Source: Argopecten irradians (taxonomy: Eukaryota; Mollusca; Bivalvia; Pectinida; Pectinidae). Taken from it: 64,000 nt of DNA. The stretch lies in contig NC_091143.1 of NCBI RefSeq assembly GCF_041381155.1, forward strand, positions 26,439,695-26,503,694, given 5' to 3'. A program made the translations under genes and the position numbers. The stretch's first letter is position 1. Every line of letters starts with the position of its first letter. A model generated the notes under the pieces. The model had not been told where the DNA came from. It saw nothing but the letters and a program-made list of their open reading frames with translations, and made no database searches. This document shows, piece by piece, positions 7,273 through 43,713 of the stretch.

Positions 7273-7353
7273 TCACTTCCTTGAAAGTTTGGCTTGTTCT
7301 AGTTTGGTTAGAGTTTCGTCCCATTGTACAAACTGTTTAGACGTCATAGAAAC
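7273..7353 (-). CDS. DCTN3: DCTN3 exon 7 (stop codon)
   Basis: Encodes VSMTSKQFVQWDETLTKLEQ and ends AKLSRK before TGA. SKQFVQWDE is identical to the human C-terminal segment. The acceptor is catcattcag. Confidence 0.92.
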   Translation of the reverse strand, partial: VSMTSKQFVQWDETLTKLEQAKLSRK

Positions 7354-10300
7354 CTGAATGATGGTCAAGGATTAGTACAACGAAAACAACTTTATGGCAT
7401 CATCCCCATACTTTTTACAATTAAACTTAAAGAGATGTCATTTTTTTATGAAATGAACTATAAACTTTAAAACAATCAAACTTTTTATTTTATATCGAGT
7501 GTGAAAACAAGTTATATAATTTTTACAAGTTACTTTCGAAAGCCTGGAATTTGTATGAGGGGTTTAATTTCAGAGTGGATTGCCTGGAGAAACCCCATGT
7601 GATTGGGAAGCCAGTGACCTGACCTTTTCTCAGCCGTACTAGGTATAGAACTCCAGCTGGCTGGCTGAACCAGTATACCAATCAACCCCTAAAGAACTAC
7701 AAACCCTTCTGAGATGTTTTGTACTATATTTCAAAAACTGATGATATAAATGAAGAACCTGGTACAGAAAGGATACAATATTATTGTAAGCAGAGAGCAT
7801 ATTCCTCACTTCATCTGTAAGATCAGCAGTCTTGTCCTGTTAAGACAAAAGATTAGATATAGATAAATCAATGCAAGCAACAACAGTAAGAACACAAGGT
7901 TTGTTTTTTAATGTGAAAAATACCCAAAATGAGCAGTTTTATATCATTCCTTAAACTGAAAGAGTAAGCTGAATCTATTGGGCATCAGTTTTGACATGTT
8001 CAAATTTATCAAATATGATACAACCTGACACCCACGTGGTTACTATAAACTATAGCATAGCTAATGTAATAGAAACTCGATTCAATATATGTGAATGTCG
8101 TTATGTTAGAAACTGATATGTTACTGATAAAATTTATGGTTTACATGTAAGAATTATTCTCACAAAGGCAGGATGTACATTTACTGTTGATTTCTGCATC
8201 AAGTTTGTTCCCTGAACTACGGCTGGTGAAACATCCAACAATGTAAGGAAAGCTTACCTGGTGGTCAAGCTGAATCCTGCTGAGTTCCTGGAATTTACTG
8301 GTATTCTTGGGTAATGCTTCAAAGGAAAAAAATAGCAAACATTTATCAATACACAAAAAGGAAACAATTTATTGTGAGAGTTATCTTTATTCACACTTTG
8401 GAGGAAAAAGATTATCATTTATCAATAACATGTAGCATAAGAAAATACCTGTTGAGCATGTTATTACAAAATTGCAAGCAGATAACATCGGAATATTGGA
8501 AAGGGCTTCTCCTTGGATTTGACCCTAGTTCTAAAAGACTTGATCAAAAGGAGAGGGGGCTTATTGGTGGGGGAGGGCTAATTGCCAGCAAAAATATGGT
8601 ACAGACCTTTCATATGCTCACTGTTGATACAATCCTTCAGTGATTCCATCATTTCCAGCTTAGCAGTCTGCTGTCGTATGAAATCCTCATCTGGAATGGA
8701 AACAGGAGATATAGTATCTCTCATCTGTAAGCTTGATTTGATACGGAAACAGAAGATACAGTATCCACAAAAGTTAACCTCTGTAAGCTTGATTTGAAAT
8801 GGAAACAGAAGATATAGCATCCACAAAAGAAAGTTTGTTTATATGAATTATCATTAATGATTCCTTCACAGTAAAAGTGTTTTGACCAAAGCCTGAAGAT
8901 TTGATTGAGTGTACACCAACCTGCTATAAGGGTATCTGCCTTGGCAGAATCTGACACGGTCATCTCGTCTGTGTAGGATGGGTCAAGGTACTGCTGAATG
9001 TTGGACACTGTACAATAAAAACATGGAAACAAGATAAATCACACACATCGTCTTACTCCACAAAATTGTGAATTGTATTGATCTCACCCTCATCAATTTC
9101 CAATGAAATAAATAAATATTAAGTTGCAAGAGTAAAATGGGACTTCAACCTACCAGGTATATATAAAGGACACATATGAGACGATTGTGTTCAGTAAAAT
9201 TGACCTATATATGTAATCTTTGGGCATATTGTCTCAATATAGCCCCAGAGTACCTGAGAAAAACCTGCATGATCAAGTAAGAGCATGAAATGTACATTTA
9301 CAGCATTCCATATTCAACCTTATAAGCACCTTCCCCATTTTTTGAGTTATTTACTAAGTGACCTTGGTGCTTATTGGTGTGAGGGATATATGATTATATA
9401 TCTTAAACCCTGGCTGGTAAGTTGACCATGTGAAGCTATTGTATTACACGAACATCCCCAACATGTCATTAAAGGAATATTGCTGTGAATATAGTGTATA
9501 TATCAGACATGCCTGGACGTACTAACTAATGAGACCGAGGTGGCATAGTGATGGAGGTGTTTAACATTGTAGGTGTTCCTTAATCTGCCACAAGCCTTCA
9601 CCTCTTGGTTACCAGTATACAGACCATTTCATCAGGTACAGAGCACAGGTCTATGGTTTTTCTATGTGTACTCCACTTTTCTACCACCTCTAGAACATGG
9701 CATAACCTTACATAGTCCGAGATACACTGGCCCTGACACCAGACTTAGACATTTTGACAGATGCACAGAGGCCAGAGCACAGTGCTATATCAAAAGGTGG
9801 AACTCGCCAACACTGTTTGGTATCGGCCCAGGTCATCTCCAATTGAGCTGCTTTCAAAACAATATACCACCAAGAAGCCTCACTTAAATTGGTCTTTTCA
9901 ACAAATGAATAATTTATCTACTCATAACAATCCATTTTATAAAACATGCACGTTACATTATGTTTATACAGTAGTTTCCTTTATGCAACTTTAAATTTCC
10001 CTCCTCGTTGTTGCCATTTTCTCATGGTGTGTAAATCGCCTCTAATCTTGACGGATTACTATATTTGGGTAGAAAAATCATTCATTTGTGGAAAAGACCA
10101 AGGTAAGTGGGGCTTCTCAGAGGTCAGTCTGAATGAGAGATGACCTGGCCCGATATCAAACGGTATCGGCGAGTTCCACCTTTTGATATAAAACTGCGCT
10201 CTGGCCCTACACTAGACATCATCTGTCATAATATTTAAGTCTGGTGTCGGATCCAGAGTATCTTGGGCTAATCCTTACATTGTAAAATACCATGACTGTA

Positions 10301-13300
10301 GATAGAATGAACTACCAGTACATGTATTTCTGATTACATACCAGTACATGTATTTCTGATTACATACCAGTACATGTATTTCTGATTATAATATATATAG
10401 AAATACATGTACTCATAAGTATTTGTACTGGTATGTAAATAGAATTACATGTACTGGTATATAATATATACCAGTATATGTATCTCTAATTACATACCAG
10501 AACATGTATTTCTAATTACATACCAGTACATGTATTTCTAATTACATACCAGTACATGTATTTCTAATTACATACCAGTACATGTATTTCTAATTACATA
10601 CCAGTACATGTATTTCTAATTACATACCAGTACATGTATTTCAAATTTCATACCAGTACATGTATTTCTAATTACATACCAGTACATGTATTTCTAATTA
10701 CATACCAGTACATGTATTTCTATTTACATACCAGTACATGTATTTCTAATTACATATCAGTATGTGTATTTCTAATTACATACCAGTACATGTATTTCTA
10801 TTTACATACCAGTACGTACATGTACTACTTACATTTACTGTAGGCCTGTGATATCCTCTTCTTGCCCTGAACTGCAGCATTGGTCTTGTTCTGGACATTG
10901 TGTAGGCTATCTATACACTGAAATCAAAGGTAAATCATAAATTACAAACTTGATTCAAATAAAAGAATTCATTTTCTATAACTACATTTAACTTGGTTAA
11001 TATAAAAGTAGAATAACTGGGATCCCAGTTTTAACTGGGTTATCACTGGGGTATCTGGGCATGGTGAGAACTTATTACCTGTGACAAGTCATATATATTT
11101 ATATTTGAATCATAATAACAAGGACATATAAAACAATGCATACTCATCTTCATCTTTAAATTCTATATGAGTTCTATGTATTACCTAATTTACAGTTGTC
11201 GGTTGAATATATTTTGTGTACAAGACAGACAACACATCTGCAACCATAATACTCAATTAGTAAAGAACACGGCTAGTATCTGGAGGGCTGCAGTTTAAAA
11301 TCCTGGTCTCAGCGCTTCATTTTCTTCTCTCCTGTTACAGACATCAACTAAAATACCTAGACAGTTTATAAGGGCCTCTTTGGGGATAAAGACTGAGAGA
11401 GAAGGGAGGAGCTTAACAGCTTAACATGACTGTACGCCAAAGGAGCGTAACAGCTTAACATGACTGTACGCCACAGGAACGTAACAGCTTAACATGACTG
11501 TACGCCACAGGAGCGTAACAGCTTAACATGACTGTACGCTACAGGAGCGTAACAGCTTAACATGACTGGACGCTACAGGAGCGTAACAGCTTAACATGAC
11601 TGGACGCTACAGGAGCGTAACAGCTTAACATGACTGTACGCTACAGGAGCGTAACAGCTTAACATGACTGTACGCCACAGGAGCGTAACAGCTTAACATG
11701 ACTGTACGCCACAGGAGCGTAACAGCTTAACATGACTGTACGCCACAGGAGCGTAACAGCTTAACATGACTGTACGCCACAGGAGCGTAACAGCTTAACA
11801 TGACTGTACGCCACAGGAGCGTAACAGCTTAACATGACTGTACGCTACAGGAGTGTAACAGCTTAACATGACTGTACGCCACAGGAGCGTAACAGCTTAA
11901 CATGACTGTACGCTACAGAGTAACACTTAAACGTAAGAGGAAGCTTAACATGACTGTACGCCACAGGAGCGTAACAGCTTAACATGACTGTACACCCACA
12001 GGAGCGTAACAGCTTAACATGACTGTACGCTACAGGAGCGTAACAGCTTAACATGACTGTACGCTACAGGAGCGTAACAGCTTAACATGACTGTATGCTA
12101 CAGGAGCGTAACAGCTTAACATGACTGGATGCTACAGGAGTGTAACAGCTTAACATGACTGTACGCTACAGGAGCGTAACAGCTTAACATGACTGGATGC
12201 TACAGGAGCGTAACAGCTTAACATGACTGGATGCTACAGGAGCGTAACAGCTTAACATGACTGGACGCTACAGGAGCGTAACAGCTTAACATGACTGGAT
12301 GCTACAGGAGCGTAACAGCTTAACATGACTGTACGCTACAGGAGCGTAACAGCTTAACATGACTGGATGCTACAGGAGCGTAACAGCTTAACATGACTGG
12401 ATGCTACAGGAGCGTAACAGCTTAACATGACTGGATGCTACAGGAGCGTAACAGCTTAACATGATGGATGCTACAGGAGCGTAACAGCTTAACATGACTG
12501 GATGCTACAGGAGCGTAACAGCTTAACATGACTGGACGCTACAGGAGCGTAACAGCTTAACATGACTGTACAGCTACAGGAGCGTAACAGCTTAACATGC
12601 ATATGACTGGACGCTACAGGAGCGTAACAGCTTAACATGACTGGATGCTACAGGAGTGTAACAGCTTAACATGACTGGACGCTACAGGAGCGTAACAGCT
12701 TAACATGACTGTACACTACAGGAGCGTAACAGCTTAACACATGACTGGATGCTACAGGAGCGTAACAGCTTAACATGACTGTATGCTACAGGAGCGTAAC
12801 AGCTTAACATGACTGGATGCTACAGGAGTGTAACAGCTTAACATGACTGTATGCTACAGGAGCGTAACAGCTTAACATGACTGTACGCTACAGGAGCGTA
12901 ACAGCTTAACATGACTGGATGACTACAGCGTAACAGCTTAACATGACTGGATGCTACAGGAGCGTAACAGCTTAACATGACTGTACGCTACAGGAGCGTA
13001 ACAGCTTAACATGACTGTACGCTACAGGAGCGTAACAGCTTAACATGACTGTACGCTACAGGAGCGTAACAGCTTAACATGACTGTACGCTACAGGAGCG
13101 TAACAGCTTAACATGACTGGACGCTACAGGAGCGTAACAGCTTAACATGACTGTACGCTACAGGAGTGTAACAGCTTAACATGGCTGTACGCCACAGGAG
13201 CGTAACAGCTTAACATGACTGTACGCCACAGGAGTGTAACAGCTTAACATGACTGTACACTACAGGAGCGTAACAGCTTAACATGACTGGATGCTACAGG

Positions 13301-16300
13301 AGTGTAACAGCTTAACATGGCTGTTGAAGCTACAGGAGCGTAACAGCTTAACATGACTGGATGCTACAGGAGTGTAACAGCTTAACATGGCTGTATGATA
13401 CAGGAGCGTAACAGCTTAACATGACTGGATGCTACAGGAGTGTAACAGCTTAACATGACTGTATGCTACAGGAGCGTAACAGCTTAACATGACTGTACGC
13501 TACAGGAGCGTAACAGCTTAACATGACTGGACGCTACAGGAGCGTAACAGCTTAACATGACTGGATGCTACAGGAGTGTAACAGCTTAACATGGCTGTAC
13601 GCTACAGGAGCGTAACAGCTTAACATAACTGGATGCTACAGGAGCGTAACAGCTTAACATGACTGGATGCTACAGGAGCGTAACAGCTTAACATGACTGG
13701 ATGCTACAGGAGCGTAACAGCTTAACATGACTGGATGCTACAGGAGCGTAACAGCTTAACATGACTGGATGCTACAGGAGCGTAACAGCTTAACATGACT
13801 GGATGCTACAGGAGGTAACAGCTTAACATGACTGGACGCTACAGGAGTGTAACAGCTTAACATGACTGGACGCTACAGGAGCGTAACAGCTTAACATGAC
13901 TGACATGCTACAGGAGCGTAAACAGCTTAACATGACTGTATGCTACAGCGGAGCTTTAACATGACTGGATGCTACAGGAGTGTAACAGCTTAACATGACT
14001 GGAGCTACAGGAGTGTAACAGCTTAACATGACTGTATGTACAGGAGTGTAACAGCTTAACATGACTGTACGCTACAGGAGCGTAACAGCTTAACATGACT
14101 GGATGCTACAGGAGCGTAACAGCTTAACATGACTGTATGCTACAGGAGCGTAACAGCTTAACATGACTGGATGCTACAGGAGTTAACAGCTTAACATGAC
14201 TGTATGCTACAGGAGCGTAACAGCTTAACATGACTGTATGCTACAGGAGCGTAACAGCTTAACATGACTGGATGCTACAGGAGCGTAACAGCTTAACATG
14301 ACTGGATGCTACAGGAGCGTAACAGCTTAACATGACTGTATGCTACAGGAGCGTAACAGCTTAACATGACTGTGGATGCTACAGGAGCGTAACAGCTTAA
14401 CATGACTGGATGCTACAGGAGCGTAACAGCTTAACATGACTGGATGCTACAGGAGTGTAACAGCTTAACATGACTGGACGCTACAGGAGCGTAACAGCTT
14501 AACATGACTGTACACTACAGGAGCGTAACAGCTTAACATGACTTGTATGCTACAGGACGTAACAGCTTAACATGACTGTATGCTACAGGAGCGTAACAGC
14601 TTAACATGACTGTACGCTACAGGAGTAAACTTAACATGACTGGATGCTACAGGAGCGTAACAGCTTAACATGACTGGATGCTACAGGAGTGTAACAGCTT
14701 AACATGACTGTACGCTACAGGAGCGTAACAGCTTAACATGACTGGATGCTACAGGAGTGTAACAGCTTAACATGGCTGGATGCTACAGGAGCGTAACAGC
14801 TTAACATGACTGGATGCTACAGGAGCGTAACAGCTTAACATGACTGGATGCTACAGGAGTGTAACAGCTTAACATGACTGTATGCTACAGGAGCGTAACA
14901 GCTTAACATGACTGTATGCTACAGGAGCGTAACAGCTTAACATGACTGTATGCTACAGGAGTGTAACAGCTTAACATGACTGGATGCTACAGGAGTGTAA
15001 ACAGCTTAACATGGACTGTACGCTACAGGAGTGTAACAGCTTAACATGACTGGATGCTACAGGAGTGTAACAGCTTAACATGATGTATGCTACAGGAGCG
15101 TAACAGCTTAACATGACTGGACGCTACAGGAGCGTAACAGCTTAACATGACTGGATGCTACAGGAGCGTAACAGCTTAACATGACTGGATGCTACAGGAG
15201 CGTAACAGCTTAACATGACTGGATGCTACAGGAGTGTAACAGCTTAACATGACTGGATGCTACAGGAGCGTAACAGCTTAACATGACTGTACACTACAGG
15301 AGCTTAACATGACTGGATGCTACAGGAGCGTAACAGCTTAACATGACTGGATGCTACAGGAGCGTAACAGCTTAACATGACTGGATGCTACAGGAGTGTA
15401 ACAGCTTAACATGACTGTATGCTACAGGAGCGTAACAGCTTAACATGACTGGATGCTACAGGATGACTGTATGCTACAGGAGCGTAACAGCTTAACATGA
15501 CTGGATGCTACAGGAGTGTAACAGCTTAACATGACTGGATGCTACAGGAGCGTAACAGCTTAACATGACTGCTACAGGAGCGTAACTGTACGCTACAGGA
15601 GTGTAACAGCTTAACATGACTGTACGCTACAGGAGCGTAACAGCTTAACATGACTGGATGCTACAGGAGTGTAACAGCTTAACATGACTGGATGCTACAG
15701 GAGCGTAACAGCTTAACATGACTGGATGCTACAGGAGCGTAACAGCTTAACATGACTGGACGCTACAGGAGCGTAACAAGCTTAACATGGCTGTACGCTA
15801 ACACTGGATGAGCGTAACAGCTTAACATGACTGGATGCTACAGGAGTGTAACAGCTTAACATGGCTGTATGCTACAGGAGCGTAACAGCTTAACATGACT
15901 GGATGCTACAGGAGTGTAACAGCTTAACATGACTGGATGCTACAGGAGCGTAACAGCTTAACATGACTGGATGCTACAGGAGTGTAACAGCTTAACATGA
16001 CTGGATGCTACAGGAGTGTAACAGCTTAACATGACTGGACGCTACAGGAGCGTAACAGCTTAACATGACTGGATGCTACAGGAGCGTAACAGCTTAACAT
16101 GACTGGATGCTACAGGAGCGTAACAGCTTAACATGATCGGACTAACAGGACATGACTGATGCTACAGGAGCGTAACAGCTTAACATGACTGGACGCTACA
16201 GGAGCGTAACAGCTTAACATGACTGTATGCTACAGGAGCGTAACAGCTTAACATGACTGGATGCTACAGGAGTGTAACAGCTTAACATGACTGGATGCTA

Positions 16301-19300
16301 CAGGAGTGTAACAGCTTAACATGACTGGACGCTACAGGAGCGTAACAGCTTAACATGACTGGATGCTACAGGAGCGTAACAGCTTAACATGACTGTATGC
16401 TACAGGAGCGTAACAGCTTAACATGACTGGATGCTACAGGAGCGTAACAGCTTAACATGACTGGACGCTACAGGAGCGTAACAGCTTAACATGACTGGAT
16501 GCTACAGGAGTGTAACAGCTTAACATGGCTGTAAGCTACAGGAGGCGTAACAGCTACAGGAGCGTAACAGCTTAACATGACTGGATGCTACAGGAGCGTA
16601 ACAGCTTAACATGACTGGATGCTACAGGAGTGTAACAGCTTAACATGACTGGACGCTACAGGAGCGTAACAGCTTAACATGACTGGACACTACAGGAGCG
16701 TAACAGCTTAACATGACTGGACGCTACAGGAGCGTAACAGCTTAACATGACTGGATGCTACAGGAGCGTAACAGCTTAACATGACTGGATGCTACAGGAG
16801 CGTAACAGCTTAACATGACTGGATGCTACAGGAGCGTAACAGCTTAACATGACTTGGACCTACAGGAGCGTAACAGCTTAACATGATGACTGTACAGGAC
16901 GTAACAGCTTAACACAACTGGACCTACAGGAGCGTAACAGCTTAACATGACTGGACGCTACAGGAGCGTAACAGCTTAACATGACTGGACACTACAGGAG
17001 TGTAACAGCTTAACACATGGACACTACAGGAGTGTAACAGCTTAACATGACTGGACGCTACAGGAGCGTAACAGCTTAACATGACTGGACGCCTACAGGA
17101 GTGTAACAGCTTAACACAACTGGACGCTACAGGAGTGTAACAGCTTAACATGACTGGACGCTACAGGAGCGTAACAGCTTAACATGACTGTACGGCCTAC
17201 AGGAGTGTAACAGCTTAACATGACTGGACGCTACAGGAGGTAACAGCTTAACATGACTGGACGCTACAGGAGCGTAACAGCTTAACATGACTGTACGCTA
17301 CAGGAGCGTAACAGCTTAACATGACTGTACGCTACAGGAGCGTAACAGCTTAACATGACTGGATGCTACAGGAGCGTAACAGCTTAACATGACTGTACGC
17401 TACAGGAGCGTAACAGCTTAACATGACTGGACGCTACAGGAGCGTAACAGCTTAACATGACTGGATGCTACAGGAGCGTAACAGCTTAACATGACTGGAC
17501 GCTACAGGAGCGTAACAGCTTAACATGACTGGACGCTACAGGAGTGTAACAGCTTAACATGACTGGACGCTACAGGAGCGTAACAGCTTAACACAACTGT
17601 ACGCCACAGGAGCGTAACAGCTTAACATGACTGTACACTACAGGAGCGTAACAGCTTAACATGACTGGACGCTACAGGAGCGTAACAGCTTAACACAACT
17701 GTACGCCACAGGAGCGTAACAGCTTAACATGACTGTACACTACAGGAGCGTAACAGCTTAACACAACTGGACGCTACAGGAACGTAACAGCTTAACATGA
17801 CTGGATGCTACAGGAGTGTAACAGCTTAACATGACTGTACACTACAGGAGTGTAACAGCTTAACATGACTGGACGCTACAGGAACGTAACAGCTTAACAT
17901 GACTGGACGCTACAGGAGCGTAACAGCTTAACATGACTGGACGCTACAGGAGTGTAACAGCTTAACAATGACTGGACGCTACAGGAGAGTAACAGCTTAA
18001 CATGACTGGACGTTACAGGAGTGTAACAGCTTAACATGACTGGAGCTACAGGAAGTAACAGCTTAACATGACTACAGAGTGTAACAGCTTAACATGACTG
18101 GACGCTACAGGAGTGTAACAGCTTAACATGACTGGACGCTACAGGAGTGTAACAGCTTAACATGACTGGAGCTACAGGAGTGTAACAGCATAAAGTGAAT
18201 GGACGCTACAGGAGTGTAACAGCTTAAAGTGACTGGACGCTACAGGAGTGTAACAGCTTAAAGTGAATGTGACGACGCTACAGGAGTGTAACAGCTTAAC
18301 AGTGACTGGATGCTACAGGAGCGTAAACAGCTTAACATGACTGGACGCTACAGGAGCGTAACAGCTTAACACTGACTGGACGCTACAGGAACGTAACAGC
18401 TTAACATGACTGGAGCTACCCTACAGCTTAACATGAGCTACAGGAGCGTAACAGCTTAACATGACTAGACGCTACAGGAGTGTAACAGCTTAACATGACT
18501 GGATGCTACAGGTGCGTAACAGCTTAACACAACTGGACGCTACAGGAGCGTCATTGCTAAACATGACTGAACGCTACAGGAGCGTAACAGCTTAACATGA
18601 CTGGACGCTACAGGAGCGTCACAGCTTAACATGACTGGACGCTACAGGAGCGTCATTGCTTAACATGACTAAACGCTACAGGAGCATAACAGCTTAACAT
18701 TACTGAACACTACATTTTTGCCTTTCTTGTTCCATACATGCTACCAGGTGTAGATATATATATCAGATGATATAAAGGATATGAAAAGACAACATATGAC
18801 TAATATGCATACAAAAATATATTGTATCATCATGATTAATAACAATTTCGCTGTCTTCCAACATGCAAAGAATTTGGTATTATCATCTGTAGGTAAAATG
18901 CAGATTCTGATTAAATGTATGCATTATTGTGTTGTGCCATATGCAATATGCATAACATGATGTATTACCATTTAAGTGCAAAATCTCCAGCAAATTGGTT
19001 ACAGACAAGATACATTTGGAAAATGTCTAGCAGGCAAAATTAAATAATTCATAAAACACAAAATACAAACAGGCAATTTGCATAATTATTTAGACATGTA
19101 TGTTACATTTCAGTGTTTAAATTTCACTGTTTAAACTTCAGGTTTACCTGTAAAGAAAATTGAAATAACTTCTAACTGTTACATAATCTACACACACAAA
19201 ATGTACCGGTATACAGATATATATCACATGTCTTTCTGATAAAAAAAGTTATTAAGATTTTTTATGAAAACATTATCTATATAATATATTTAATATAGAA

Positions 19301-22300: not shown

Positions 22301-25300
22301 TATAGTATAGTATATCCTAATCAAACAATAGTCATATGCGATTAATGCTCAAAACAGAAGATGAAAACAATAATACAATATATATGGTACGTAATAACAT
22401 GTATTTAGGATCTAGCCTATATATATATAGCTAGCAATTTAAGTTGCCTTGGTTCCTTTGTTTATATATATAAAGCATTTGAGGTAGTAGAAGAATATAT
22501 GATCAGACAGAATAACTAGCCATGTAGTACTGGACACTGAATTTTGTATGTGCTGTTATGTGCTGCTATAGAAAAACTTTTTGTTTGTGTTCCCTGACAG
22601 AAATAGTTTTTACCTCTTCTCTTTGCTTGCAACCCTGTTTTTAGAAACATCAAAAATACAAAACAAACATTAGTTTTTATGCAACAAAAATACATGTAGT
22701 CTATGTTCTATAATGACATGTATAGTATGTATTTATTTCAAAACCACATAATGCAATGTGTTAAGACATATACCATGCAAGGCTTGATGCAGGATAAGAA
22801 AACACAATACAATATTTAAATAATGACAAGCATTCTGAAGTGAAATATAGTCTGACAATATATAGAATGAATCATTTCATGATGACAATCAAAGTAGAAA
22901 TATTATGAAAGTAGGCCTAGCTAGGCTTAAGTACCCTAAATATTTGCAAATTATTCATCTTTGTATTTGCACATTACAGAGTTATCTGCCCTTGTAGGTA
23001 GGTATTGATTGTGACGTCATGTGTTTGCGAGCGTAATGTCATGCATTTCGGTGAAAACGACGTGAATTGCGCTCACAAAATAATGATGTAACAATCGGAT
23101 ACCTACCCGAAAGGGAGCTAACTCTGTAATATGCAAAGACGGAATATGGGCTAGCGTTATATTCATAAAGTTACTACAGATAATGATATGATGTCATCAA
23201 AGTGATCAGACTTATTTAGAATTTAGATACAACAAAAGACATGCTCTAACAAACCATCTCTGTTAAAATAGACTATAATCTTATATGTATGCATGATGTA
23301 CAATTTTATATTTGGAAATCAAATTTGATAATTGATTAATTGGTCAATGGGTTTTTGTTTTCATTTGCACATGCAGTAAATTAATTTACTTATGAAATGT
23401 ACATGTTTGTAGCATATAGCTGACTGGGAAATAACATGACATCCTTTTCAGAAAAAAAAATATATTGATATTTACTAGCATGTTTAATATACAAAGACTT
23501 GTAATGAATGTTAATGAGAATATTTATCCTACATTATGTAGATCAAGGAAATCAGACATAGACTGGTGTAGACCAAGATACTCCAGCCTTGACACCAGAC
23601 TTAGTCATTATGACAGAATCATGCCTGCATGGTGTAGATCCAGAAACTGCTATATTAACGTTTGCTATCATTGGGCCAGCCAGGTCATTTCCTTTTCAGA
23701 CTGACACCGAGAAGGGCCACTTACCTTGGTCTTTTCAACAAATGAATAATTTATCTCCCCAAATATAGTAGTTCATCAAGATCTAAGGCGATTTAATTTG
23801 CATACTTTGAGAAAATGGCAACGACGAGGAGGAAAATTTAAAGGTGCAGAAAAGAAACTACATGTATACGTACTGTATTTATAGTATAAAATGCATGTGA
23901 GATAAAATGGATTACTATGAGTAGATAAATTATTCATTTGTTGAAAAGACCAAGGCAATTAACAGGTTGGGGACACTCCTGTATATGCAGGATAGTCCTG
24001 CATTTGAGTAATAGTCCTGTATTTGAGGGATAATTTTGTTATGCAAATGCAGGACTCTGTGAAATGAAAAGTGATAAAGTTGTTTTTAAACATTTTCATC
24101 AAAAAAGGGCATCATAAGTTTTATATGGCATCATCACTAATACAACTTTCCACATTATCACTCAAATAGAAACAAATTTCATTATCTAAATGTTTGTATA
24201 GGTCACAAACAAAATGACCTCTAAGGTCACAGTACCCAAATCGGATCAGTACCCAAATCGGATCACGGATTCGAGAAATTGCTCTTTTTATCGCATGCAC
24301 ATTTTACGTTTAAAATAAACGTACATATAGTCATAAAAATGCATTTCCGCGATATTTAAACCAAATTTTGAAGCAGTGATCGATTTTATTATGCTTTAAT
24401 GAAGACTTTGAAATCGGCAAGTTGGTGTTATTTTCGTCAATCTCCTACAATGTCACCGTGCGACGGTCTATTTTCTCATGTTTAACCCCATTACACTGCA
24501 CTACATATCATCAAAACATAAAAGTATGTACCCAAAACAAGAATAGAGAAACATTTAGGGAGGTATTCGATGAACAGGGTAGTCCATACCTTTATTTAGG
24601 ATGCCACTAGAAACGATTCATATTCTGCCGCCATCTTGGAACTATTACTCAATGATCTTTGCGCATGTCAAAAAGTCATTCTAAACGAACAGGTACTTGT
24701 ACTATGATTTTCCGGTTTTTTCAATGTTGTATAAGAGTTATTTCCCTTCTGTCATTGTTTCGATTTTTTTTGAGTTTTGCATATCTGTGATTATATAATA
24801 TTTATAATAATTATTATCTTACTATAAGATGTTGCTATTATCAATTATAATGTAACATTATTTGTTTTCTCCAGCAACAAAGAATATACAAAACACAACT
24901 ACAGATATGAGAATGTGTTATTAAATAAAATGTTTAAAATATGTAAATACAAATAGTGAAATACAGAAATGAATATTACAAAATGTTCAAATTCATATTA
25001 TTTGTATTATTGATTATGAAAAAATGTATTTTAGTACACAAGATGTTAACAAATTACCATAAAATATTTATATTATTTAAATACTGTTTTAAACAAAACA
25101 AATATAAGGAGATTATACAAATGCAATATTAGGTAATGATATGTAAACTGGTTTAAAAAAATATCTTTCTGAACAGTAGTGTCTACAGATAAGAAGAGGT
25201 AGTTTGTTTCATATACAGAGCACTGTCAGTGAAGTTTTTTTTCTATTTACAGGGAAAATAGTAAAAACCTTTAAATAGAAATATATGGTGCCAGCATGGC

Positions 25301-28300
25301 AATATCAAGTACCTGGCCTTCTGACATTGGTAGAGATCATTCTTGAAGCAGAACAAACAAATTTCAGCGAGGAATACCAGAGTACATAAATCGTGTTACA
25401 TCTATCAAATTAATTAGATTGGTTTTGAATTTGTATTATTCTAAATTTTTATATTTTCAGATCACTGCACTGCCATCCAAGTTTCTGATATTTCCTCCTC
25501 TATTCTGTTTCATTTTTATTACACAATGTATATCATTTGACAATCTGATAATAAGTTGATTTTTAAGTGTATATTTTATTAATTCATCAATGATACTTGG
25601 GAAAGCAAAATACAACAAGAATTATTTATCAACACTTTATTTAATCTAGAGTGACATATCAATTTTACTGTGAGACCCTGCATTTCCAAGTGAATCAGCA
25701 TGAGTGAAATATTCATTTGATATTAGTTACAATTATTGAAGTGGCTGCTATTTTAAAATCCAAGCATCAATTAAAGATAAGCATCAATTAAAGATATTGT
25801 ACACTTCCATTTCAGACATAGGGTAAGTGCATCTATAATATGAATGAAACATGTTTGGTCAAGGAACATTCCTGTACAAAGTATGCCACCTTGATAGACA
25901 AGGGTGTTGTATACAAGGTCATTGGATCTCCGTGACAAACTCCCACACAACAGCAGCAGTATGTTTGTCCATGAAAAAGTCCTCTTGATAAATTGCCCAT
26001 GAAAAAGTCCTTCTGACGTTTGTAACTTATGAAAAGTCATTTCCAAGTGCAGGCTACCTTGATGATAAGTCTACAAAACCTGAAATAAAAAAAAGAATAA
26101 CTGAGACATATGTAGCTGTAAAATATTGATAATTTCTGAGCAAATGTTTAAAGCCTTAAGATTTGGAAAAAAAATCTTAAAATTTCAAATGAAAATCCAC
26201 AGCTTTACTAATAAAGTAATGTTTAATGTTATAGCTTATAGACATACCTCTACATAAAATCCTCCAGGTATCTTTTGAAGCGTCCATCAAAAGGAAGACT
26301 CCTGATGTTAATACTTTGGTTGAGAAGGCCAGAGTGAACAGTGTGGAATATTTTTGTTTCCTTCCTCACTACTCATTTGCTACAGCCTTTTAGTGTAGCC
26401 TTGTTTCAGCTAATGAAGGCACAGACTTCATTTCAGAGCTGGCAATCAGTCATGGATACCTGAACAGTCACCTAGTTATAGAAGAAAAAAAAGGTTTAAC
26501 TCTTGAAGTTTTTCATTTACAAAATATCTTGTACACATGTGATCAATAATAAACAACTAATTAGAAAAAAAATACTGTCTGATCTTGTTAACTGACACTT
26601 AGGTTTTCATAATTCTTAGACATGTAATATATATATATAAGCTATTGACTAAACCTAAATTTGCCAGTTGTCTCCCTTCCATCAAGTTCATACAATACCT
26701 GTTGCTCTTCTGGACAACCTGTTATTGTACATGTAAGAAAAGTGACTATCAATATCGCCTCCCATGAACAGCTCTCAGACAACAAAACAGACTTGGCTCA
26801 TTTACATATTATTAGCATGTTTATACTTAATACTGTGAATAAAGTTACTGAAGATAGAATGAATTATCCACATTTCTGTTAAATATAAGTCAGAGGGTTT
26901 TGAGATCACATTTTAACTTGAACTGGATTATTTATTATTGCCTTGTATTTCGCCTTATCACTCTGTTCGAAACAAGGACAACATATATATAATAATTGTA
27001 TTGAACTTAATAAGTACAGATCTACAATTTGAAGACTTTGAAATTTAAAATGAAAAAATAAATATGAGAATTGATTTTTGCTTCAAGGTTGCCCAAGTAC
27101 TTGTGTTCCATTTTTCTGATGCATGCACACAGTGATTAAAGCAGTCATTCATTAATCAATAATAATTAAACAAAATACTAACCAATCATGTTTTGTATAA
27201 TAACAAGCTGAATTAAGACACATTTTTCAGTTCTTCAGAAGGTTGGGGCCTGCAATAATGAAATAATATAGTATGTATTATACATCACAATAATATAGTA
27301 ATAATACAAATTCATAGTTTGCCAGGTACAGTACTGTATCAGGGATCAAGCCTCTCTTGTGTAAACATACATACCCTACATGACGTACTTGAAAGTGAAG
27401 GGAATGGGTGTTTTTTTTTTAAATAGTTATGACATGGTTGCGTACAATATGTAGATACAATGTATGTCAGTACACCTGAGATCCATATATATACATGTGT
27501 AGAAGAAAATAGAAAATGTATACGTAGCGGCCAGACAGGGATTCAAACTTAGAACCTCCCAACAATAGCTGACTGAGCAACTTGGTCACCGACTATCGAT
27601 CCAGTCTTATCCTGCTACACATATGCAGTCACATGTGCCTGATCATTGTTGATGCTTATGAGATTTGTATAATGACTATAATTATGTATGTCTGCAGTTC
27701 AAATAGTTATAAGACAAAATTATCAAAAGTTCCCAATTCCCAGAAATCTCTTGCTTGTGTGAGATTTAATCTACTATTTTTTTTCTATTAATTTCACAAA
27801 TTAAATTTTAATTAATCACTAAAAGGCAGCAAGATTTACATTATAATTTAAAAAAAGAATTACCAATATATTTTATATGTAAATATAAATAAAAACAATA
27901 ATTGATAGATATTCATTTGATGCATGTTACATTTTAAAGAAAAAAATCTACCAAAGTGCACTGTATGTATTTCAGTTGTTGATGTTACATGTTGTCACAC
28001 AATCTACTGATTGTGTTATGTGGAAGATCGACAGTAAATAAACTTGAGACCCCATCAGGATTCGAAAAAAACTACGAAAATTTTGTTATACTTTGAGAGA
28101 CATAGGGTAGAAATGGTTAATTTCTCAATTAAAGCATAAAATCATTTAATTGTTGCAGCTAAACAATAATAAATATCGACCAATTATCATTTTCGTCAAT
28201 CTAACAATGCGCACCTGTTCGGTTTGTCAACCGGAAATTGAAACCGTCATGCGGTCGATCGTGTTATGAATTTGAAAGGCTCAATAAAACACTAAAAAAT

Positions 28301-31300
28301 GACTGTGACGCACAAAATTACTGATCAATCTTGTCAATAGTGATGATATTTATCGTACATACCAATTATTTAACTATATAATGCATAAAATATACCTATT
28401 TTGGGTTATTTCTCTCGCTGATCCGATTTGGGTACTCTTCTGTTAAAAAACCGGAAGTTCATCTGTCAATGTTTGTGACGTCATAATTCACGCGCGCACG
28501 CGACTATGACAGTGTGGAGCTGTCTGAACTTCGTCACGCATAGCCTTCTTATGAAAAAACACGATATGTAAAAGGTCAGTTGCAAAATTTGGTTTAGAAA
28601 GAAGAAAATGTTGTTTTGGTGATCCGATTTGGGTACTGTGACCTTATTGCTTACTATGGGGCTTAAAGCGAATAGTCGGGCAAGTGACTGTAAAATCGGT
28701 AAAAATGGTATTAATATATCCGGTATAATTTCTTATGAATTAGAAAAATAAAACTTTCCGTCAAAATCGCTGTACATGCGAAGAAAATAATAATATCTAT
28801 GGGAATCCTAAAAGTCCTCCCGGACGGCTAAGAGTGCAGTTCAATCTTAACGCATGCGCAACACCCACCACTCTCCGTAGTAAACAAAAATGGCTACCGT
28901 AGTTTTGAACCAAAATGTTTCCGCCAAAACAACCAACTGACTCACCTAAAATGCGAAAGGAAAGGCAATTTTGCAGCGACAATCCCAACAACTGACTCGG
29001 TAAACATTACGACGCATGGAGAGTGTTAATACAACTTGTTATAGTGAAGAGAACAGTTCAAACGAGCACGCGGCTCCGGACCGCTACTGTACGTACCTAG
29101 GCCTACTACGTACCCGGTACTCCCTGCTCAGCTGATTGTGAGTGAGTCTTCGTATTTTGATCATTATGTAAATAGTCCCTAGCAGTATTTTTTCATAAAT
29201 GAGTGGTCACATATGGTCACATGTTTCATACCTGTTCCCCAATCGCGTAAAACGTAACCCTGGGGTAAATAGCGGTTCTTTAGTGGGGCCTCTTTAGGGG
29301 TAATGAATGCCCTGTATGCTACCGGTCAATTCATACAGTTCTGATGTATATATTTATAGATTTTTAATTTGTAAATTTTTGTTCTGTACATGTTCTGGTA
29401 GTGTTATACACATACATTGTATATAGGATTTACATTGTAGGTTAATTGGTAAAATTGTATTGTATATGTTCTGATATACACATATACATATATGTACATG
29501 TAGGTTTTAGCTTGTTCTTTAGATATATTTGGAGGACACATACAATATTATTTCTGGTCATAATAATAAATAGTGTTTGTATATTTATTACAACTGTACC
29601 TGGTTCATGTGTATATGACAAACTTTACAGAGTTGAAATGTACTGCAGCCATGTATCATTTATAATTATTCTGAATTTTTGTTGGAACTATAGATAATGA
29701 ATTTTGTATCTTTTTTGAAACAATATTTGATTCTATCAAATGCATCAGTGACACATTCACAACTTATAAAATGTTTTCTCTAAAATAAAAAAAAACCCTG
29801 TAGAATGAACCTACATTTATTCATTTATATATATTTGAAATTGATCATTTCAATTTTTGTCATATTCAACAGATATAAAAAATTGCTGGTTCTTTTTTTC
29901 AGGCACCATGCATGCATAGTGACATGAATACAGAAAGATCATCCCTTGGACCTGTATACAAGTGTATGTATACATATACATACAATTAGCATCATATGAA
30001 GACTGAAGAATGTTGATTTGAGTGCTCTTGAAAGTAAACTTTTCCAATATGGACCTAGAAGATCATGAACAGAACATTTAAACAGTATTAATTTATTAAA
30101 TGTTCCTTTCAACTGTAATCATTAAATAAAATTATGATGCAATACTTTTTCATTGTTTAACTTTGTAGAAATATTTGTTTATATTAGTCCTCTAGATCCA
30201 GTGATTATAATTCTTGCATCCATATGCCTGCCCATTTGTTTGTCAGGGCTTGTGAGATAGCTTTTCAATTACTTTTAAAATATAAGGATTTTTTTTTACA
30301 TATAGCAATATAGATAACATTGTCTTAGGATTTCTAAATTCTACTTTACAAGAGAGTAGACTCAACATATAAATAAAACCATAAAACTAGCAAGTTATCT
30401 GAAATGTTAAAAATCTTTTTGTCTGAACCAAATTTCACATTTATTGTCTATGTGTAACTTGTACATAGACCATTTATGTATTAATACTGTAGTAACAGTG
30501 ATTACAAACACATAGACTAAAATGTAGTATGTAGTACTATGTACATCTGTCTTTGATTTGAGTTCTAAACAAAAAAGTGGTACCTATTGGGAAGTTGTGA
30601 CTTGGGCGGAGGGTGAAATACAGAAGAAATAGCTACACATGGAAAAAAGAAAGATATACAGTACCATATGGATTCAAAGTTGCTCCAAAATCAATGAGAC
30701 TAAATAACCAAAAAAAGCCATGTAAACCCCAAATATGCAATGACCAGATCAATGATAAAGCACCCTTCCACTTCCAGTTATCTGTAGCTATTTCTTCTAT
30801 ATTTCAACCCTCCACTCAAGTTACAACTTCCCAACCTCATGATTCTTCTGTCTTTTAGCCCCCCCCACCCCCCAACACACACATACCTGATTGATTGTCA
30901 TGTTATTTCAGGTTCCTATTCAGGTATTATTCCTAAAAACCTAAAAGGGTATACACACTGTGTACTCTCAAAGGAGGGGAACCACTTCATTCAAAAATGG
31001 AATTTACAATTTCATCTTAATTTTTAAATTTTCAATTTAATTATTTATTACTGGACTATTAAAACAGTATAGAACCCCTCGGCTACAGACAAAGTACTGT
31101 GGTACACATTTCTCTTAATTAATTACTTTTCTTCAACTCAATCATCTTTTTCTCCAGAGCACAAAAAAGAACAGGAAACAACAGAAAAGGAAAGTAACAT
31201 ACATGTAGGCCTATATGTTTTCTGGAAATATATATGATGTGTTAATTCTCACAGCATAGGCCTACATGAATGTGAAGAATTAAATATTATCAATGTTTGA

Positions 31301-33022
31301 GAGAATTTCCTAGTTGTGATTCTATAGCAGCTACATGGAATGTACGTTTACATATATACATTGTACGATACATATACATCATAAAAGTTTCTTTCCTTCC
31401 AGCTGGACATTCATGTCATCTCTCTCCAGAACTCAAATATTGTTTACAAAAAAAAACCAACCAGAGACATAGATAATTTAATTAAATCTCTGCAAAAAAC
31501 TACACGAATAATTGAACACATATATTGTACTTGTAAAATATCTATGTATGAGCTAATTTATTTTCACATCTTTGACAGCTACATGCATGGACGTTCTATG
31601 GAACGTTTTCGTGTGGTTTTAAATGGGAAATTATGTTACGATTATTTGTATTTAACCTTCATGATTCGGTTGATGTAAAATACGACGAATGCTATGCTGC
31701 AATAATTACCCCTTGCCGGGGCCCCATCTCTGCATCGGCCGAATATTTGTGTCGATTTCCATGTACAAGATGCTTTTATCGAAAAATGATTACAAAGCAT
31801 TGTCATTAATGTAAGAATACTTCATTTGCATCAAATGTATCATCTCAAAACAACAATTTGCATACCGCATTAGTGGTTTATCACACGAAACAAAACCGAC
31901 ACGACTGAGAAACACATGTCCATGTTGACATTTCCACGCAGCCTCGTTTTCAAAGAGTTTGGCGAATTTATATTTAGAACTGTGCTAAATTTACACGGGG
32001 CTTCCCCAAAATTTCAATGGTCAAAACTGGAACACCGTGAGCAGAACTTGACCATCATTATGGTATACAATGACTTTTGGAAGGCCAAAGAACGCATTTA
32101 GACTGGTTTCCTTTGCCCGACTATTCACTTTAAAATAGAACACAGGTAAAAGTCAATCAATCATGACATTTACACTAAATTTCCCTGATGGCTATACACT
32201 GTGGTATATGGACAGCACTTAAATGGTCACTTCATTACAAAGTGAGACAATGGAATTCAATAGTTCATACACAAAAAACATAAAGTCTTCAATTAGGGCT
32301 ATCTGAAAATTATGACACCCTTTTTTGATACAAAATTTTAAAATAACTTTATCCGTTTTCATTTCACAAAATCCTGCATTTGAGTAACAAAATTTGTCCT
32401 CAAATACAGGACTGTTACTCAAATGCATGACTATCCTGCAATATACCGGAGTGTCCCCAACATGATTAAGCGAGGCTTCTCAATGGTAATGTTTTGTATG
32501 CAGTCTGAATCGGAGACGACATGATGGTCTGCTACCAAACGGTGTCGGCGAGTTCCACCTTTTGATATAGTAGTACGCTCTGGCCCCACACCAGACAACA
32601 ATCTGTCATAATGTCTAAATCAGTTGTCAGGTTCAGAGTTAGATCATGAGTCATCCGATATAAATTGACAGACTGCAGGGTCAATCAAATTGTGACCTTT
32701 TTGTCTACTTAAAAGTCTTATATCACATTCTCTAACTGCTAGGATATATGCCTAAAGTCCAACAGAAATTCATATTCAAGTTCTGTTCACGTTCACCACT
32801 TTACGATCGCGAGATTCCGAAAGAACCATTGACACTGACAGGCTAAACCAGCAGCAAATAGCAGAGTCAAGAGGGGGGAATGTAAATGGAAACATCATTC
32901 CGGTGATCTATGTTATCTTTAAATACCTTTGGGTATAGCGCATCTTTATCAGAGCTCCCAAATACCAGACATTCGAGTAATGTTATGCGATTCTCGAGTT
33001 GATCCAGTTGGTCGTCGGCCAT
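7273..33022 (-). CDS. DCTN3: Dynactin subunit 3 (p24), seven exons, complete
   Basis: Dynactin subunit 3 is the small coiled-coil subunit of the dynactin shoulder, which works with cytoplasmic dynein in cargo transport along microtubules. Coding exons on the minus strand: 33022-32927, 10917-10833, 9007-8921, 8690-8607, 8316-8258, 7836-7777 and 7353-7273. Every junction has GT-AG ends and phases agree (0, 1, 1, 1, 0, 0), giving 183 aa; human DCTN3 has 186. Telling matches to the vertebrate protein: IQQYLDPSYTDE for IKYLDPEYIDR, LIADEDFIRQQ for ILAEEQFILSQ, ALPKNTSKFQELSRIQLDHQ for [20 protein letters not shown], and SKQFVQWDE, which is identical. The start is the only ATG that gives the family N-terminus (MADDQLDQLENRI). 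Intron 1 is about 22 kb and packed with repeats; introns 2-6 are 0.2-1.8 kb. No breaks were seen in the coding exons. Confidence 0.93.
7777..7836 (-). CDS. DCTN3: DCTN3 exon 6
   Basis: Encodes DKTADLTDEVRNMLSAYNNI. The acceptor is tgtcttaacag and the donor ATT followed by gtatcc. Without splicing the frame runs on into unrelated sequence; splicing to exon 7 restores the family sequence. Confidence 0.88.
8258..8316 (-). CDS. DCTN3: DCTN3 exon 5
   Basis: Encodes ALPKNTSKFQELSRIQLDHQ. The acceptor is cctttgaag and the donor CACCAG followed by gtaagc. Confidence 0.92.
8607..8690 (-). CDS. DCTN3: DCTN3 exon 4
   Basis: Encodes DEDFIRQQTAKLEMMESLKD and onward to SEHMK, matching EEQFILSQVALLEQV of the human protein. 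The acceptor is tccattccag and the donor GAAAG followed by gtctgt. Confidence 0.93.
8691..8830. repeat. Tandem copies of the acceptor region in DCTN3 intron 3
   Basis: About 2.5 copies of a 56-bp unit (ctgtaagcttgattt at 8725 and 8781). The part next to exon 4, ggaatggaaacaggagatat, is repeated in diverged form, so the intron holds extra pyrimidine-rich tracts with AG on the minus strand. Confidence 0.7.
8921..9007 (-). CDS. DCTN3: DCTN3 exon 3
   Basis: Encodes SNIQQYLDPSYTDEM and onward to ADTLIA, the best-conserved block of the protein. The acceptor is ttattgtacag and the donor GCAG followed by gttggt. Confidence 0.93.
9715..10270. mobile_element. Foldback element A, uninterrupted copy (DCTN3 intron 2)
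   Basis: Long inverted arms of about 170 bp (left 9715-9887, right 10104-10270) share ctgacaccagactta, atatcaaaaggtggaactcg and ggtatcgg with their reverse complements. The 216-bp centre (9888-10103) has its own inverted ends (ttggtcttttcaacaaatga). No coding capacity. A related copy at 23565-32640 is split by a later insertion. Confidence 0.85.
10313..10820. repeat. 26-bp minisatellite, about 19 units
   Basis: The unit is taccagtacatgtatttcta plus attaca. Most units face the same way, but around 10400-10460 they are reversed (tacatgtactggtat). The array lies in DCTN3 intron 2 and its end is close to the exon 2 donor. Confidence 0.95.
10833..10917 (-). CDS. DCTN3: DCTN3 exon 2
   Basis: Encodes CIDSLHNVQNKTNAAVQGKK and ends ISQAYSK. 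The acceptor is ttgatttcag and the donor AAAT followed by gtaagta. A 26-bp minisatellite in intron 2 ends about a dozen bases from this donor. Confidence 0.9.
11235..11345 (+). mobile_element. Possible degenerate tRNA-derived SINE head
   Basis: Ends in gcagtttaaaatcctggtct, which resembles a decayed B box of a tRNA-derived SINE, preceded by an A-box-like stretch. Weak; no tail or target duplication could be fixed. Confidence 0.3.
11410..18713. repeat. Minisatellite array 2: 34-bp unit, about 215 copies (DCTN3 intron 1)
   Basis: The unit is gcttaacatgactgga then cgctacaggagcgtaaca, 34 bp. Over 7.3 kb the copies differ mostly at a few positions: tgtacgcc forms dominate the left end, tggatgct the middle and tggacgct the right end. 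Both CpG sites in the unit (gaCGct and gagCGta) often appear as TG or CA. Scattered copies have small deletions. The only reading frames are by-products of the repeat. Confidence 0.97.
18720..19475. other. Non-coding intron sequence
   Basis: AT-rich DCTN3 intron 1 sequence with no gene or clear repeat recognised. Confidence 0.5.
19480..19841. mobile_element. TTAA-flanked MITE, copy 1
   Basis: Left end TTAA then AGATGCTCTACCGCTGACA; right end TGTCGGCGGTGGAGCATCT then TTAA. 362 bp, AT-rich and non-coding. A second full copy lies at 42324-42687 and a partial one at about 5067. TTAA may be the target duplication, or TA with a longer terminus; two copies cannot settle this. Confidence 0.88.
19842..21005. 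other. Non-coding intron sequence
   Basis: No gene seen. Contains the 16-bp palindrome cctaatatatattagg near 19991-20006 and A-rich tracts around 20100-20260. Confidence 0.45.
21010..21735. mobile_element. Pair of adjoining inverted-repeat elements
   Basis: The inverted pair gaatacattgttagtatcc (about 21018) and ctaaccatgtattct (about 21152) bounds one small element. tttatcctgcaact at about 21165 and gttgcaggataaa at about 21714 bound a second of about 560 bp. The second contains ttacgtcat and tgacgtca motifs. Non-coding, with no transposase. Confidence 0.6.
21740..22950. other. Non-coding intron sequence
   Basis: AT-rich, no gene, no clear repeat. Confidence 0.45.
22954..23147. mobile_element. 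CRE-carrying MITE, copy 1
   Basis: Inverted ends: tacagagttatctgccctt on the left and gagctaactctgtaata with tgcaaagacggaata on the right. The interior holds a perfect TGACGTCA at 23012-23019. The family also lies at 37.26, 39.64, 45.80 and 47.07 kb. Confidence 0.85.
23565..23962. mobile_element. Foldback element A, split copy: left part
   Basis: The left arm (ccttgacaccagacttagtc and following) and the central palindrome (23724-23955, ends ccttggtcttttcaacaaat and its complement) match the 9715-10270 copy. The right arm is found 8.5 kb away at 32466-32640, because element B is inserted at the TTAA at 23959-23962. Confidence 0.82.
24222..28646. mobile_element. Element C: 4.4-kb segment with perfect 27-bp inverted ends
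   Basis: taaggtcacagtacccaaat followed by cggatca at 24222-24248 is exactly inverted at 28620-28646. The inner 17 bp (gtacccaaatcggatca) is repeated at 24249-24265 and, inverted, at 28419-28435. No transposase was recognised. It may be a DNA transposon with TA target, or two smaller related insertions facing each other. Confidence 0.6.
27525..27600 (-). mobile_element. tRNA-derived SINE head
   Basis: On the minus strand cggtgaccaagttgctcagt resembles an A box and gtttgaatccctgtc a B box, about 35 bp apart, as in tRNA-derived SINEs. No clear tail. It sits inside element C. Confidence 0.5.
28420..29130. promoter_or_regulatory. GC-richer patch with CRE and NRF1-like sites
   Basis: In otherwise AT-rich intron sequence this patch has TGACGTCA (28475-28482), cgcatgcgca (28851-28860, NRF1-like) and acgcgcgcacgcg. 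A short plus-strand frame starts MATVVLNQNVSAKTTN. It could be an internal promoter of a mobile element; no gene follows that I can recognise. Confidence 0.25.
28667..32129. mobile_element. Element D: 3.5-kb TTAA-flanked segment nested in B
   Basis: The left end is TTAA (28663-28666) then AGCGAATAGTCGGGCAA; the right end is TTGCCCGACTATTCACT then TTAA (32130-32133). The 17-bp ends match with one mismatch. No transposase seen. It contains a smaller foldback at 30584-30838. Confidence 0.65.
30584..30838. mobile_element. Foldback element inside element D
   Basis: ttgggaagttgtgacttgg and aagaaatagctaca on the left pair with tgtagctatttctt and ttacaacttcccaa on the right. The arms are about 60 bp. 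The 81-aa frame across it is an artefact of the palindrome. Confidence 0.75.
32466..32640. mobile_element. Foldback element A, split copy: right arm
   Basis: gcgaggcttctcaatggta, then a cagtctgaatcggaga block, ggtgtcggcgagttccacct and tttgatata match the right arm of the 9715-10270 copy. Confidence 0.82.
32927..33022 (-). CDS. DCTN3: DCTN3 exon 1 (start codon)
   Basis: Encodes 32 residues beginning MADDQLDQLENRITLLE, the heptad-rich N-terminus typical of the subunit. The donor is CCCAAAG followed by GTATTT, in phase 0. Confidence 0.9.
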
Positions 33023-42687: not shown

Positions 42688-42788
42688 TCTGTAGTCAGCT
42701 CATTTAATGACCTGTGGCATTGTCTTTCCCAAATTTTAGGCCATGATGTGTATAAATTATTTTGAGATATTTAATCTCTGGGTATATA

Positions 42789-43713
42789 GAAACATTGGTT
42801 TAGTTGTTTGAAATGGTCAGTTTCCATTTATTGAAGACATGTTGATAGAAACATTGGTTTAGTGGTTTGAAATGGTCAGTTTCCATTTGAAGACATGTTG
42901 AAAGAAACATTGGTTTAGTGGTTTGAAATGGTCAGTTTCCATTTGAAGACATGTTGAAAGAAACATTGGTTTAGTGGTTTGAAATGGTCAGTTTCCATTT
43001 GAAGACATGTTGAAAGAAACATTGGTTTAGTGGTTTGAAATGGTCAGTTTCCATTTAGTGAAGACATGTTGATAGAAACATTGGTTTAGTTGTTTGAAAT
43101 GGTCAGTTTCCATTTAGTGAAGACATGTTGATAGAAACATTGGTTTAGTGGTTTGAAATGGTCAGTTTCCATTTAGTGAAGACATGTTGATAGAAACATT
43201 GGTTTAGTGGTTTGAAATGGTCAGTTTCCATTTGAAGACATGTTGAAAGAAACATTGGTTTAGTGGTTTGAAATGGTCGGTTTCCATTTATTAAAGACAT
43301 GTTGATAGAAACATTGGTTTAGTTGTTTGAAATGGTCAGTTTCCATTTATTGAAGATATGTTGATAGGAAAATTGGTTTAGTTGTTTGAAATGGTCGGTT
43401 TCCATTTAGTGAAGACATGTTGATAGAAACATTGGTTTAGTGGTTTGAAATGGTCAGTTTCCATTTAGTGAAGACATGTTGATAGAAACATTGGTTTAGT
43501 GGTTTGAAATGGTCAGTTTCCATTTGAAGACATGTTGAAAGAAACATTGGTTTAGTGGTTTGAAATGGTCAGTTTCCATTTATTAAAGACATGTTGATAG
43601 AAACATTGGTTTAGTGGTTTGAAATGGTCAGTTTCCATTTAGTGAAGACATGTTGATAGAAACATTGGTTTAGTTGTTTGAAATGGTCAGTTTCCATTTA
43701 TTAAAGACATGTT
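42789..43713. repeat. Tandem array, 16 units of 56 or 59 bp
   Basis: The unit begins gaaacattggtttagtggtt. A 59-bp form has atttagtgaagacatgttga and a 56-bp form lacks 3 bases there (atttgaagacatgttgaaag). Each length form has its own linked substitution (gata or gaaa), so units were copied as haplotypes. Confidence 0.95.

Follow-up and report, generated by a model that had tools for sequence, protein, structure and literature searches.

Elements of the MULE group follow a rule of 9-bp target duplication, hAT elements have termini resembling CAGG...CCTG, and piggyBac elements combine a TTAA target with termini that start with CC. A target duplication of 8 bp is usual for hAT elements, and a hAT5 group with 5-bp target duplications has been named in the same source, citing Kapitonov and Jurka 2007 (PMC12730594). 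Duplication of TA is described for Tc1/mariner elements (PMC5199201), and relatives of Harbinger that duplicate TA are also on record (PMC12730594). Kolobok elements are reported to duplicate TTAA and to carry 5'-RR/YY-3' termini (PMC9587614). In a survey of molluscs, DNA elements including MITEs were over-represented relative to LINEs in bivalves, and Kolobok types were reported almost only from bivalves (PMC10294476).

Here we describe a segment of about 8.5 kb and its foldback host (23565-32640) in a window of 64,000 nucleotides from Argopecten irradians, which is contig C10:26439695-26503694 of an 845.8-Mb assembly. Coordinates are those of the window and refer to the plus strand unless stated otherwise. 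With a probability that we put at roughly 95%, this region consists of four nested DNA transposons, A, B, C and D, which are non-coding and differ in kind; A is the foldback host. For B, C and D, the junctions and target duplications were read directly, as were the uninterrupted paralogous sites and the family membership of each piece. The superfamily names given below are provisional; they are drawn from ends and target sites, a transposase having been located for none of the four. Nothing in the stack is a new kind of system, as it is built of nested transposons of known kinds.

A MITE within a foldback element

The host, element A, is a foldback of about 565 bp whose left part lies at 23568-23957 and whose right part lies at 32470-32639, as placed by alignment to paralogues. 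When the two parts were joined across B, A (positions 69-633 of the joined sequence) aligned to its paralogues over about 565 bp, with the longer pieces 70-79% identical and one 102-bp piece 90% identical to a paralogue, which runs against the age gradient of the stack. A family member without the B insertion lies within the window at 9713-10270, spanning 558 bp from one end motif to the other. Over 457 bp it shares about 77% identity with A, and as single-stranded DNA it folds over its whole length (z = -16.9; 100 shuffles). An earlier interpretation, made from the letters alone and referred to here as the sequence-only reading, had recognised the insertion within a foldback and had taken the sister copy at 9715-10270 for the preserved empty site. 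The insertion and the uninterrupted relative were borne out. Since the paralogue is about 77% identical and lacks the ATTAA target of B, it shows the kind of site that B entered and not the actual, allelic or orthologous, empty site.

Target duplications of the A family were looked for in eight sources, with the pair of end motifs present in three and in none of the other five. One copy (L007) is flanked by a perfect 9-bp duplication, TATCAGTAG, and in both L005 and the 9.7-kb paralogue 8 of the 9 flanking positions agree. By eye, L006 matches at 9 of 9, L008 shows no 9-bp duplication, and the window's A shows no clear one. With its 9-bp target duplications and full-length foldback, the A family is like MULE foldback elements, for example the root-knot nematode element Tm1, but differs from them in having no linked transposase, and the window's A has lost its own duplication. 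The likeness suggests that A is MULE-like. A presumably reached this site by an insertion of its own, the target duplication of which is no longer visible.

Element B interrupts A between two copies of ATTAA (23958-23962 and 32465-32469), with borders that read ATTAA|CAGGTT...AACATG|ATTAA. It is present in three pieces, placed by blastn: piece 1 at 23963-24223, which corresponds to positions 1-260 of a 615-bp copy elsewhere in the genome (L013) and has at its end the TA that C duplicated; piece 2 at 28645-28666 (TATTGCTTACTATGGGGCTTAA), between C and D; and piece 3 at 32130-32464, positions 279-615 of the same copy. Aligned by blastn, L013 matched the window at 23963-24223, 28641-28667 and 32132-32464, in the same order and on a single strand, and the short middle piece was recovered with 4 of the 5 copies compared. 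Once the inserts and the duplications that they made are taken out, the window's B is 612 bp long. The ends of B form one of the nine inverted-repeat pairs listed in a search of the window (23986-24108/32318-32440, 83%). The roughly 160-bp inverted ends of the sequence-only reading are thus real, at about 123-167 bp and 83-84% complementarity (23963-24129 and 32298-32464).

To place B in its family, the best 40 of 615 first-look candidates for its left end were scored across the genome and 30 loci were cut out, the window's included. Both ends were found in 22 of the 30 loci, 613-642 bp apart in 21 and 1,514 bp apart in one, and no end pair was found within the locus at the remaining eight, the window's among them. 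An exact 5-bp duplication flanked 19 of the 22 copies with both ends (for example TTGGA, TCAAA, TAGGA, TTGTA and TACAG); the exceptions were L010 (one mismatch), L014 (compatible with a 6-bp TTATAA) and L015 (no match). The spacing of about 615 bp together with the 5-bp duplications argues that the unit of the B family is a MITE of that length. In comparison with five copies, the window's B was 88-94% identical, while other copies were closer to one another than to it (23 of 30 loci, with a median identity of 98.7% to L013), so that the window's B is older or belongs to a different line, divergence being only a rough measure of age. B duplicates 5 bp and not the 8 bp of canonical hAT elements. 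In that duplication it resembles the hAT5 group, and its family termini, CAGG...CCTG, are hAT-like; it differs from that group in the lack of a linked transposase and in its inverted ends of about 160 bp. B is therefore described here as probably hAT5-like.

These data bear on the reading of the 8.5-kb segment as one non-autonomous transposon that has inverted ends of 160 bp and duplicates a TTAA target. TTAA does stand literally near both ends of the segment, and one end repeats the other in inverted orientation. Yet these outer ends belong to a family whose unit measures about 615 bp and makes 5-bp duplications, the interior consists of two independent families, C and D, which have their own ends and targets elsewhere, and a piece of B sits between them. 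We rejected the single element on the flanks of the family copies, and regard it as almost certainly wrong. Copies of the outer ends lacking TTAA borders, which the sequence-only reading had named as evidence against itself, are the rule: TTAA was flush on the left in 5 of 22, on the right in 3 of 22 and on both sides in none of the 22. Even in the window it is not flush on the right, where the border reads CATG|ATTAA (CATG standing here for the family end CCTG). The two outer ends do occur together elsewhere, as had been expected, but at the MITE's spacing in 21 of 22 copies and not at 8.5 kb. What had been taken for one element is a 612-bp MITE flanked by a 5-bp duplication of ATTAA, and its extra length comes from two inserts, one of 4,421 bp with TA flanks and one of 3,463 bp with TTAA flanks. 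The notion of an element nested within an element was right, then, at each junction of B, C and D, but the TTAA-bounded outer unit was not.

TA- and TTAA-flanked inserts in the MITE

Element C, which had gone unnoticed in the sequence-only reading, occupies 24224-28644 (4,421 bp, without a recognisable coding domain) between TA at 24222-24223 and TA at 28645-28646. Its terminal inverted repeat is a perfect 27 bp, found at 100% in the search of the window, and the arms (24222-24248 and 28620-28646) take in the flanking TA. A genome search with the left end (279 bases) gave 26 first-look candidates, all of which were scored, and 27 match rows; the right end (206 bases) gave 26 match rows. Over its full length the left end was matched by eight sequences at 100% (rounded, window included) and by three more at 97-99%. 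When rows were paired by position, by hand, both ends were present at 19 places, some of these pairings coming from partial end matches (for example C715, with 54 of 206 right-end bases). The span was 4.05-4.46 kb at 11 of the 19 (4,424 bp between match ends in the window) and 0.23 (two), 0.8, 2.2, 5.9, 7.3, 7.3 and 9.8 kb at the others. TA was flush at 16 of the 17 left ends that had the motif (20 loci) and at all six right ends fetched.

Over up to 1.8 kb, 13 of 19 copies were 97-99.7% identical to the window's C and six were 75-92% identical; for C as for D, the copies compared were the best-scoring ones, which biases identity upward. With copies mostly 97-99% identical among those compared, C is a young family. 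A six-frame Pfam search of the window's C gave no match at E<=0.5, as expected for a non-autonomous copy. C shares TA duplication with elements of the Tc1/mariner type or the TA-duplicating Harbinger type, and differs from both in measuring 4.4 kb without a recognisable coding domain and in its 27-bp inverted repeat; we class it simply as a TA-targeting element.

C encloses a dispersed repeat at 27524-27620 (minus strand) that is SINE-like by eye. It is also present within other C copies and has relatives of 72-80% identity elsewhere, and ARAGORN called no tRNA in it. At four places the end matches of C relatives lie 5.9-9.8 kb apart (C5:18280287-18290121, C15:24244669-24251920, C7:34280813-34286740 and C15:6293645-6300971), and these long relatives contain either further insertions or the missing transposase. 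Two 227-bp stretches (C16:22661932-22662158 and C14:936214-936440) match partial left and right C ends and are perhaps MITE-sized derivatives.

Element D occupies 28667-32129 (3,463 bp, without a recognisable coding domain), exactly the inner TTAA-bounded segment of the sequence-only reading, between TTAA at 28663-28666 and at 32130-32133. Its ends are AGCGAATAGTCGGGCA...TGCCCGACTATTCACT, the end at the side opposite AGCGAATAGTCGGGCA being AGTGAATAGTCGGGCA. For this element the TTAA interpretation was upheld: TTAA was flush at all 30 left ends that were read, one of them the window's, and at 12 of 12 right ends fetched, with AG at each of these left and CT at each of these right termini. The family is abundant. 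The left end (198-201 bases) was 100% identical in the best 40 of 815 first-look candidates, and the right end (234 bases) 99-100% identical in the best 40 of 1,384; as these two sets of 40 have two places in common, at least 78 distinct places carry a D end of 99-100% identity. In comparisons over about 1.7 kb, 26 of 29 copies gave a single long alignment, and their identity to the window's D had a median of 98.5%; the other three, L048, L056 and L067, are shorter or broken and do not enter this median. Like C, D is a young family, mostly 97-99% identical among the copies compared.

A further foldback had been reported inside D at 30584-30838. The foldback exists (30587-30834; inverted-repeat pair 30587-30614/30807-30834, 89%), but a second full copy of D (L044 and L089), with TTAA on both sides, has the same foldback and aligns through it. 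The foldback thus belongs to D, and a separate insertion was rejected.

No transposase had been recognised in the sequence-only reading, and the searches here, which used Pfam only, likewise gave no match: none in six frames of the window's D at E<=0.5, and no support for coding capacity in the window's C or D. An open reading frame in a D copy had weak Pfam matches below the family cut-offs (DUF2344, E = 0.0094; DAAF9_2, E = 0.064). Reverse-transcriptase matches were also seen in two loci, L035 and L073. L067 was considered as a longer coding relative of D and rejected, as its 218-aa open reading frame had no Pfam match and the sequence further on is a tandem array. Its D follows the window's D for about 430 bp and then diverges, and the later tandem array runs into L108; at 1372-1934 of this locus, a diverged D-type left end (80%) lies just ahead of the D left end.

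The insertion sites of both elements are preserved uninterrupted in other members of the B family. D's site was intact in every one of the 29 other B loci, where it reads TTGCTTACTATGGGGC-TAAAAATAG or a sequence close to it, and C's site in 28 of 29, the exception being L036, which has another insert nearby. At D's site the family reads CTAAAAATAG, whereas the joined flanks of the window read CTTAAAATAG, indicating that one substitution in the window's B supplied the TTAA. The insert in L036 (about 1759-2655) is a different element of about 0.9 kb with CAGTG-type ends and an apparent duplication of CCTC, roughly two bases from C's site.

Classification and spread of the TTAA-flanked family

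The ends and the TTAA target of D fit a Kolobok-like element. D has the TTAA duplication and the 5'-RR...YY-3' termini (AG...CT) seen in Xenopus XKol A1 and T2-MITE, and its AGCGAATAGTC/AGTGAATAGTC resemble the XKol A1 ends, given as AGCGATTCTG and AGTGATACTG (PMC6004289). It differs in having no recognisable coding domain and in measuring 3.5 kb, against the size of <800 bp given for MITEs (PMC5199201). D does not have piggyBac termini, since it begins AGCG.

On contig C9 near 27,415,900 (L090, C9:27415600-27415960), two D copies stand head to tail with exactly one TTAA between them. Such an arrangement would be expected if D were the unit of a KolobokP-type composite that spreads by transposition and tandem multiplication, as multimers and solo terminal direct repeats have been reported for KolobokP, which is described as especially rich in bivalves (PMC9587614). 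The terminal direct repeats of KolobokP are, however, given as about 450 or 660 bp in that source, and no direct repeat of >=40 bp was found in the window's D, which thus lacks long terminal direct repeats of the KolobokP type. Insertion of D into the TTAA beside another D also explains the tandem and needs nothing new. We consider the composite distinctly improbable. A broader proposal would make D a non-coding family of Kolobok type that is active at present and numbers very many nearly identical copies of 3.5 kb; the size of the copies, their inner foldback and the tandems that share a TTAA would then reflect a second, non-canonical mode of multiplication beside transposition. This seems to us unlikely, if somewhat less so. 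D is best kept as a young, Kolobok-like family.

Host gene and order of insertions

The sequence-only reading had put the segment in a DCTN3-like gene, after the first coding exon, and this location was confirmed. A pattern search placed the first coding exon at 32927-33022 on the minus strand (32 codons, MADDQLDQLENRITLLECLVFGSSDKDALYPK, followed by GT). Later exons, spanning 7291-9017 on the same strand, were placed at 9017-8922, 8697-8602, 7839-7765 and 7347-7291 (E = 0.003, 0.56, 0.74 and 0.001) with human dynactin subunit 3 as the protein probe. The four matches are in the right order, the middle two being too weak to stand alone (E = 0.56 and 0.74). The whole stack thus lies between the first coding exon (~33022) and the next detected exon (~9017); residues about 33-57 had no placed match, and a small exon in between is possible. 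A genome search with the Pfam dynactin p22 model gave no match, and none in 14 controls either, and is hence uninformative.

The same gap between the first coding exon and the next detected one holds a 7.3-kb tandem array at 11407-18714 (34-bp unit, about 216 copies). Two other arrays in the window lie at 10313-10815 (26-bp units), starting just past the A paralogue, and at 42786-43713 (59-bp units).

About 290 bp separate the nested block from the first coding exon, which might suggest that the block owes its retention to a part in regulating the DCTN3-like gene; location is the one point in favour of such a role. C and D are so young that conservation could not show, no result here indicates function, and neutral accumulation in a large intron suffices as an explanation. 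A regulatory role is, in our judgement, very improbable.

The stack is best explained by at least four cut-and-paste insertions of non-coding DNA transposons, one after another, each element probably being mobilised in trans by a transposase from elsewhere in the genome. The MULE-like foldback A presumably entered the large early intron of the DCTN3-like gene; the 612-bp hAT5-like MITE B then inserted into A at ATTAA; and C (4.4 kb, TA target) and the Kolobok-like D (3.5 kb, TTAA target) each inserted into B afterwards. The sequence does not fix the order of C relative to D. Identity to relatives is 70-79% for A, 88-94% for B and mostly 97-99% for C and D, and the nesting order fits this gradient of divergence, A > B > C, D.

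The stack thus supplies a relative order of insertions. It also corrects two readings: TTAA flanks that had been misread as a target signature are part of a 5-bp ATTAA duplication, and insertions stacked in one another had been read as a single large element. Beyond this locus it leads to two young families, one TA-flanked and of low copy number (C), the other TTAA-flanked, abundant and very young (D), and it is the D family that is the most interesting component of the stack.
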